DNA of 64,000 bases from Suttonella sp. R2A3 (lineage in GTDB: Bacteria; Pseudomonadota; Gammaproteobacteria; Cardiobacteriales; Cardiobacteriaceae): assembly GCF_021513215.1 (NCBI RefSeq), contig NZ_CP090975.1:1695001-1759000 (forward strand), written 5' to 3'. Position numbers and translations under genes: made by a program. The notes under the pieces were generated by a model. That model ran no database searches, was not told the origin of the DNA, and was given only the letters and a program-made list of their open reading frames with translations. Positions within the stretch are counted from its first letter, which is position 1, and the number at the start of each line of letters is the position of its first letter. Below are positions 17,882-19,591 of the stretch, in pieces.

Positions 17882-18015
17882 TGCATGTATTGGCGAATAT
17901 AGCTGAGGAATCTGTGCTTGCCCATTTTCCCAGCTTGTGATAATTTCAACTTATTGGCATCCATACTTATAGAACTGATTAACAGTTATGTACTAGTTCA
18001 ATAAGGACAATTTGC

Positions 18016-18066
18016 ATGCTTATTCTTCTGGAAGTAAATAACATTCTTAAGGAAGGTTCAGAATGA
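18016..18066 (+). CDS. Possible 16-aa leader or remnant peptide
   Basis: ATG preceded by AAGGA with 9-nt spacing encodes MLILLEVNNILKEGSE and stops in an ATGA overlap with the next tiny frame. It may be a leader peptide, a fragment of a lost gene, or chance. No family is recognised. Confidence 0.2.
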   Translation: MLILLEVNNILKEGSE

Positions 18067-18116
18067 AATCTATAGATTGCATTTATAAGCTCAAAAATTT
18101 CTCACTAAGATATTAG
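18063..18116 (+). CDS. Possible 17-aa peptide coupled to the preceding micro-frame
   Basis: It starts at the ATGA overlap with GGAAGG 6-7 nt upstream and encodes MKSIDCIYKLKNFSLRY. It ends 24 nt before the protease start. No homology is recognised; chance is a real possibility. Confidence 0.18.
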   Translation: MKSIDCIYKLKNFSLRY

Positions 18117-18140
18117 TTATATGCGTGAATAAGCTATTAG

Positions 18141-19040
18141 ATGTTATCGAAAAAAAATAAGTTAATGATCACAAAAAAAACATTAGATAAATACGATGGA
18201 CATGTAATTCTGTACTATGGCGGAATTTCGAGAGAAGGATATCAGAAATTATCTGGCGCACTAGAACGTATTGAAGAAAAGAAAAAGAAAGTCTGTCTTG
18301 TATTGATTACATATGGTGGTGATCCTGATCCGGGTTATAGAATTGCAAGAGCGTTAAAACATCATTTTCACGAAGTTGAAATATTAATTCCTGATATATG
18401 TAAATCTGCGGGTACACTTATTTGCATCGGGGCAAATAAATTGATATTTGGTGATCGGGGTGAACTGGGTCCACTTGATATTCAACTATCAAAACCTGAT
18501 GAAATTTTTGAAAGTATGTCAGGGCTGGATATAATTCAAGCGCTGAATGCACTGGAAAATCAGGTTCTAGGAGCCTTTCGGCGCTATCTCATGGATATAC
18601 GAGACGGGAGTAGACTAAGAACAAAATTGGCGGCTGATATTGCAACTAAACTTGCTAGTGGCTTTATTTCACCAATGTCATCTAAAATAGACCCAGTAAC
18701 TCTAGGGGAGCATCAAAGGGCAATGCAAATTGCATATGACTATGGCGAAAGATTAAACAGCGTTACTAATTCATTAAAACCTGATTCACTTATCAAGTTG
18801 ATTAGTGGATATCCTTCTCACAGCTTTGTAATAGATCGGAAAGAAGCATCTACATTATTTAGCGAGGTTGAGGCACCTGATGAAAGTACCGTAGAACTGT
18901 ATGAGTGGGCATTGTGTTTATTACCAAATGTTCCATACCCACAATCTCCTATGGTGTTAAATTTGGTGGACTTTGTTGAAAATACTAATGCAGTTGAAGA
19001 ACAACAAGATATACAGAAAGGTGATATAAATGAAGATTGA
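18141..19040 (+). CDS. SDH-family Clp-fold serine protease (SppA/ClpP-like)
   Basis: A 299-aa soluble protein without signal peptide or membrane helix. YGGDPDPGYRIARAL (58-72) resembles the oxyanion-loop region of Clp-fold proteases. CKSAGTLICIGANKL (87-101) carries the likely nucleophile Ser89, and GELGPLDIQ (107-115) matches the LGPIDPQ motif of the serine dehydrogenase proteinase (SDH) family. The C-terminal part is less conserved. A, T and Lys/Ile-rich codon use differs sharply from pgsA and recG, suggesting transfer. An in-frame TAG lies immediately before the ATG, and no good ribosome site is visible; M9 at 18165 is an alternative start. The substrate is unknown. Confidence 0.75.
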   Translation: MLSKKNKLMITKKTLDKYDGHVILYYGGISREGYQKLSGALERIEEKKKKVCLVLITYGGDPDPGYRIARALKHHFHEVEILIPDICKSAGTLICIGANKLIFGDRGELGPLDIQLSKPDEIFESMSGLDIIQALNALENQVLGAFRRYLMDIRDGSRLRTKLAADIATKLASGFISPMSSKIDPVTLGEHQRAMQIAYDYGERLNSVTNSLKPDSLIKLISGYPSHSFVIDRKEASTLFSEVEAPDESTVELYEWALCLLPNVPYPQSPMVLNLVDFVENTNAVEEQQDIQKGDINED

Positions 19041-19224
19041 ACAGCTGATGAGTCAGGAATTACTGGAAAAAATGGAGGGATTGTTGAAATGTCAGAATAG
19101 TCGAGCCCAAGAGATGGCAATGCTAGTTCAGTCGCAAGCAGATAAACAGTTAACACGAAATATACAAAAATCTCGGACTCAATCCGTAGCGCACATAACA
19201 AGTCAAATCGCTCGGATGAGCTAA
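19030..19224 (+). CDS. Small protein encoded with the SDH-family protease
   Basis: A 64-aa protein, MKIEQLMSQELLEKMEGLL..., overlapping the protease end by 11 nt, with GGTGAT just upstream of its ATG. It is Gln/Met/Leu-rich and probably helical or coiled-coil. No cysteine pairs, signal peptide or known domain are seen. The tight overlap implies coexpression; an adaptor, inhibitor or substrate role for the protease is inference only. Confidence 0.5.
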   Translation: MKIEQLMSQELLEKMEGLLKCQNSRAQEMAMLVQSQADKQLTRNIQKSRTQSVAHITSQIARMS

Positions 19225-19591
19225 AGTATGCTGATGTGTTAGTGTTCAAAGCGAAGGACTTTCATCAATAATAAGTACAGGTGTTCCTACTAGGAATATC
19301 ATGGTCTTTTTTATACGTATTTATACACAACTATATTTTAAACAAAGTCAATTGTAAAAATAAAAGTTATTTTGGTGCTATTTTACTCGCGCCTACTGGA
19401 TTATCACTATTTCTACAGTGTTGTAGCGCCTTGAAAATTTATGGTTAAATCCGCCACTGACACACAGGCCTTTTCCCTAAAATCGCACTTCTTTTACACA
19501 GGAGTAAGGAATTTAAAAAGGCTAAGTGTATAACAGAAAACTAAATAGGGATGGATTTAGAAGGAGGTTGCTTGATTACAGTTAACAGGCT
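19225..19591. other. AT-rich intergenic stretch, no gene recognised
   Basis: 367 nt between the small protein gene and the end of recG. No frame longer than a few dozen codons resembles a protein, and no tRNA, clear terminator or IS end is visible. An aaggaggttgcttg segment near 19561 resembles a ribosome site, but no gene follows it. Confidence 0.5.

Follow-up and report, generated by a model that had tools for sequence, protein, structure and literature searches.

Results and discussion

An AT-rich acquired segment in the pgsA-recG interval

Why does a protease gene with a small overlapping frame lie in an AT-rich segment between pgsA and recG, is the small frame a genuine gene, and what might the two proteins do together? 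We addressed these questions in the window, i.e., the whole stretch of 64,000 nt that was analysed, and in homologous loci from other genomes, plasmids and viral contigs. The features are listed in Table 1.

The GC content of the segment was 0.360 versus 0.501 for the whole window, and no other 1710-nt stretch, sampled in 100-nt steps, was lower. GC3 was 0.25 in the protease gene compared with 0.54-0.57 in the flanking genes, which agreed with the foreign-composition island proposed in a preliminary description of this DNA. The segment contained a 299-aa ORF, a 64-aa ORF and non-coding ends. No second copy was present in its own genome, no direct repeats of note that might mark integration bounded it, and no convincing promoter was found upstream of the protease gene in the window. 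We also observed a 55-aa hydrophobic frame (19281-19448) downstream of the pair, inside the segment, which had no relatives among the fetched loci.

The preliminary description had placed the island at a tRNA cluster serving as an integration point, but no tRNA was found between pgsA and recG, and the sole tRNA of the window was located at 2276-2365. It had also called pgsA and recG conserved, which was true of each gene but not of their adjacency. In a genome of the same genus (G001 contig 3, 206514-217083), the two genes were on the same strand approximately 8 kb apart; the two genomes thus differ in gene order at the acquired segment or close to it. In six other genomes of the family, 3-6 kb of sequence next to pgsA was examined and did not include recG. 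With the two genes separated in relatives, an empty site in a sister strain is not definable.

Table 1. Features of the acquired segment (positions are those of the window).
Feature	Position	Strand	Basis
AT-rich acquired segment, pgsA-recG interval	17882..19591	.	GC lowest in window; single copy; close protease family only here among relatives searched
SDH-type Clp-fold serine protease, 299 aa	18141..19040	+	PF01972, phrog_21683, invariant Ser/Asp/His, AlphaFold2 model
Codon of invariant Ser89, motif CKSAGT	18405..18407	+	Invariant in 54 homologues; nucleophile by analogy to Clp-fold proteases
Shine-Dalgarno-like AAAGGTGA	19016..19023 (approximate limits)	+	6-nt match to SD consensus, 5-nt spacing before small-gene ATG
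64-aa basic helical partner protein	19030..19224	+	Homology to L004/L049 partners, family-wide +1 constraint, helix model

The protease belongs to a divergent phage clade of SDH-type proteinases

The protease matched PF01972 (ClpP-like SDH-type serine proteinase) with 35.4 bits, above the cut-off of 31.3, and a far stronger match (E 1.6e-102) was to phrog_21683, a phage family without an assigned function. Its score of 44 bits against the NCBIfam Clp_like_SDH equivalog was below the cut-off of 250, and the protease therefore represents a divergent clade. Compared with the SDH-type ClpP-like proteinases, with which it shares the Clp fold and the Ser-Asp-His order of invariant residues, it differs in belonging to this distinct phage clade and in carrying an overlapping partner gene. 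Ser89, Asp113 and His227 were invariant across the 54 homologues. By analogy to Clp-fold proteases, Ser89 is the putative nucleophile of the predicted active site, and the motif GELGPLDIQ was also present, in agreement with the SDH-family protease with Ser89 and LGPLDIQ given in the preliminary description. DNA similarity to the closest homologues began at an internal ATG (18165), which may be the true start of the protease.

The AlphaFold2 model of the protease was of good confidence (pLDDT 89.7, pTM 0.83). A search of the PDB with this model revealed ClpP, SppA and the 1510-N/NfeD protease as matches, with E-values of 6e-5 to 3e-4 and modest TM-scores of 0.26-0.40 by query, and giant-virus SDH proteinases were matched in a viral structure library. 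As judged from the model, the predicted fold is of the Clp/crotonase type.

A conserved small gene overlaps the 3' end of the protease gene

The 64-aa frame was found as previously described, overlapping the protease gene by 11 nt, and it lies in the +1 frame with the Shine-Dalgarno-like AAAGGTGA upstream. Its lack of conservation had been named as one finding that would refute the proposed module. Comparison with the partner at locus L004 revealed 26/62 identical residues and a score of 119, whereas the shuffle maximum was 61; the partner at L049 was identical in 19/57 residues with a score of 106 (shuffle maximum 56). All three proteins begin with M-K/R-x-x-Q-L-M-S-Q-E. A profile of distant small proteins missed the window partner, whereas near relatives recovered it, marginally above shuffles. 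The window partner was predicted to form a single long helix (pLDDT 88.7) and has a pI of 9.5. The small-protein family as a whole was likewise basic (median pI 9.7), and no membrane segment was found in it, the highest 19-residue hydropathy being 1.4.

The small protein also recurred beside the protease homologues: in essentially every complete homologue, the +1 frame over the protease 3' end encoded a similar basic helical protein of approximately 60 aa. In most members, the start of the small gene precedes the protease stop by approximately 100-180 nt and its end is a short way past that stop; the small gene is thus embedded, entirely or for the most part, in the protease gene, an arrangement that the preliminary description overlooked. 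The window partner is almost free-standing, with an overlap of only 11 nt, because the window protease has lost its disordered tail. Some distant members (e.g., L126 and L123) had no clear partner motif. L084, considered as a member without the +1 frame, proved to be an artefact of ORF choice.

To examine selection in the overlap, 14 independent (disjoint) homologue pairs were aligned at the nucleotide level in a frame-neutral manner. Divergence at main-frame positions 1, 2 and 3 was 0.095, 0.031 and 0.466 upstream and 0.244, 0.141 and 0.123 in the overlap, respectively. Divergence at the main-frame wobble position thus fell from 0.47 to 0.12, and the highest value in the overlap was found at main-frame position 1, the small-frame wobble position, which exceeded position 3 in all 12 of the 12 untied pairs (P = 0.0005). 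This switch set in approximately 170 nt ahead of the protease stop, where the small gene typically starts, and alignments guided by either protein agreed with the frame-neutral pattern. Shine-Dalgarno-like sites preceded +1-frame ATGs in the tail at a frequency of 0.41, compared with 0.16 for upstream control ATGs.

Alternatively, the frame might be no gene at all and arise from the composition of a protease tail that is acidic and of low complexity. The openness of the +1 frame had a P of 2e-5 under codon permutation and of 0.54 under synonymous recoding, nearly what recoding alone predicts; it is only weakly unusual because acidic tails give few +1 stops, and the case for the small gene therefore rests on the substitution pattern and on homology. 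Both point away from a purely compositional origin, since the codon-position pattern is inverted in the overlap and conservation of the window partner continues past the protease stop, and we rejected this explanation as very improbable. Because wobble divergence falls in the overlap and peaks at the small-frame wobble position, comparative sequence analysis establishes the small gene as a real and conserved gene overlapping the protease gene. The substitution pattern and the Shine-Dalgarno-like sites further indicate that the overlap is governed by the small protein, the protease tail being largely a passenger.

Distribution of the close protease family

The close protease family (phrog_21683) was found in no other genome when 57 relatives and 369 genomes of the class were searched; the other class genomes contained distant SDH proteases only. 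The pair was therefore not common to all relatives with native composition, the finding that the preliminary description had named as fatal to its view: it was absent from the relatives searched, and its composition was foreign. Its homologues, 40-76% identical, were carried by prophages, filamentous-phage-like plasmids and viral contigs. In particular, the family occurred on at least 118 IMG/VR contigs (the best 80 were retained), in 48 of 5,426 complete E. coli genomes, in Proteus, in a Klebsiella phage, and on a filamentous-phage-like plasmid where it was flanked by a zot-type gene and an integrase. These locations indicate that the close family is mobile and mainly phage-borne, as expected from the earlier suggestion of a phage-derived module. 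They support the view that the window segment is foreign and phage-derived and carries a protease with a genuine small partner. Since the pair is found both on a filamentous-phage-like plasmid and by itself as an island in the window, it does not serve the virion of one phage. No published work on this protease family was found in the open-access literature.

The prophage slot and its neighbours

In E. coli lambdoid prophages, the protease gene was located directly behind a LexA/CI-type repressor gene on the same strand. A Peptidase_S24 repressor was the upstream same-strand neighbour in 11 of the 20 upstream neighbours scanned in viral contigs, which had been selected partly by size. Lambdoid phages commonly carry moron genes such as rexAB between the repressor and N, and bstA lies there as well (PMC7067206); in another host, rexAB-type defence genes are found just downstream of CI-type repressors (PMC12894663). 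The protease of the prophage homologues, though not of the window copy, thus shares its slot behind a CI-type repressor with lambda RexAB, RexAB-type systems (PMC12894663) and BstA (PMC7067206, PMC8585504). A two-gene module is common to Rex and the protease-partner pair. However, RexAB consists of a DNA-binding RexA-like and a membrane RexB-like protein, whereas the present pair has neither and comprises a protease and a soluble helix encoded by overlapping genes; moreover, defence is a proposed role for this pair.

In E. coli, the same slot behind a LexA-type repressor was filled by a distant SDH protease accompanied by a 56-aa small protein of its own. In these IncI2 and prophage loci (L018 and L132), the order of repressor, protease and small gene was the same, with the small gene immediately after the protease gene, but unlike in the phrog_21683 family the genes did not overlap and the small protein was not significantly similar (P 0.33). 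Homology to the partner was likewise not significant for the small gene beside the distant protease at L016.

Several further arrangements were observed. The 56-aa companion stood alone behind a LexA-type repressor, with the distant SDH protease gone, at L133:4014-4184 (E. coli NZ_CP046539.1) and also in NZ_AP045172.1. At L016:4842-5837, on an E. coli phage-plasmid (NZ_CP081794.1), a distant SDH protease gene lay on the opposite strand between antiterminator Q and the holin, another typical moron site, and a 59-aa +1 frame overlapped its end. A distant SDH-like protease was also the largest gene of the 4.15-kb ColE-type Klebsiella plasmid pHNLW22-3 (L017:154-1209). Neighbours of the pair at L101:7046-7909, L122:5354-5890 and L114:7127-8158 included a GmrSD-type restriction domain and SNase-domain proteins, which is suggestive of cargo or defence clusters in these viral contigs.

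Possible functions of the pair

Sequence comparison establishes to which family the protease belongs, that the overlapping gene is real and conserved, and that the pair occurs on mobile elements and in prophages; function was considered against this background. We propose that the pair is a two-gene accessory module of temperate phages and other mobile elements, stranded or captured in the chromosome here, in which gene 1 encodes the SDH-type Clp-fold serine protease and gene 2 the basic helical partner of approximately 60 aa. Embedding in the +1 frame would provide both proteins from one mRNA and ensure their joint inheritance. The pair would be expressed in lysogens, jointly with the CI-type repressor or next to it, and its proteolytic activity would shield the host against superinfecting phages, through either superinfection exclusion or abortive infection. 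The small protein might bind and control the protease, either as an inhibitor released on infection or as an adaptor.

Defence is suggested by the prophage location of the pair, its mobility and its persistence outside prophages. That the pair is a prophage-spread module expressed in lysogeny, most likely anti-phage in action and with the small protein as regulator, is in our judgement about an even proposition. The more specific reading, an undescribed anti-phage system composed of a Clp-fold serine protease and a small helical regulator in overlapping frames of one gene, is plausible but falls somewhat short of that. Against defence, neither protein matched any PADLOC 2.0 profile of a known defence system, and proximity to the repressor also fits control of lysis and lysogeny.

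Such control and a toxin-antitoxin function are the serious rivals to defence. In a lysogeny-control module, the protease would act by cleaving the phage repressor beside it or some other regulator, with the small protein serving as adaptor or inhibitor of the protease; ImmA acting on ImmR and CIII inhibiting FtsH are comparable cases. The Peptidase_S24 repressor nearest upstream in many prophages fits this reading, as do the XRE and ImmA/IrrE genes adjoining the protease in the Klebsiella phage. However, no S24 repressor is adjacent on the filamentous-phage-like plasmid, the window pair stands alone with no phage gene beside it, and adjacent repressors vary in size while the pair itself stays the same, so that we consider lysogeny control unlikely. 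Alternatively, the protease could be a toxin for the host, with the small protein encoded inside its gene as antidote, the two stabilising the element as an addiction pair. An embedded partner is unlikely to be lost while the protease stays intact, none of the close members whose protease was complete clearly lacked the +1 frame, and two E. coli prophages of the distant SDH type keep the small gene with the protease gone; the last point is weakened in that the small protein of this type is not demonstrably homologous to the partner. We regard an addiction pair as slightly less probable still, although this reading is compatible with defence and does not exclude it.

A role in the virion was also considered. 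Lambda C is a Clp/SppA-fold protease with a 3' scaffold gene, Nu3, nested in frame, and a capsid maturation protease with a nested scaffold would share this general architecture; head-maturation protease models indeed gave weak matches. Nevertheless, the model of the ClpP-related head maturation protease (NF045542) scored only 24.8 against a cut-off of 120, the nested gene is in the +1 frame here, and the protease gene is located in immunity regions instead of head modules and is also carried by a filamentous-phage-like plasmid, for which a capsid is unnecessary. A capsid function is therefore highly improbable.

Implications for annotation and phage biology

In the gene tables read, those of E. 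coli prophages and the Klebsiella phage, only the protease was listed and the overlapping gene was missing. Any test of the annotated protease gene has therefore unknowingly carried or truncated a second protein. The two proteins probably form a protection system carried by phages, of which current annotation records one half. To our knowledge, long same-strand overlapping genes have rarely been demonstrated in bacteria and their prophages; the overlapping gene described here is found repeatedly in a broad family and bears a clear signature of selection. The almost free-standing window partner makes separate expression and testing of the two proteins easy. If the pair defends against phages, it would add a proteolytic system to the rexAB slot, and the overlap would enforce co-inheritance such that a dangerous enzyme is never acquired without its controller, the very component that annotation pipelines have missed. 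If it is not defensive, the pair would still be a new phage regulatory pair.
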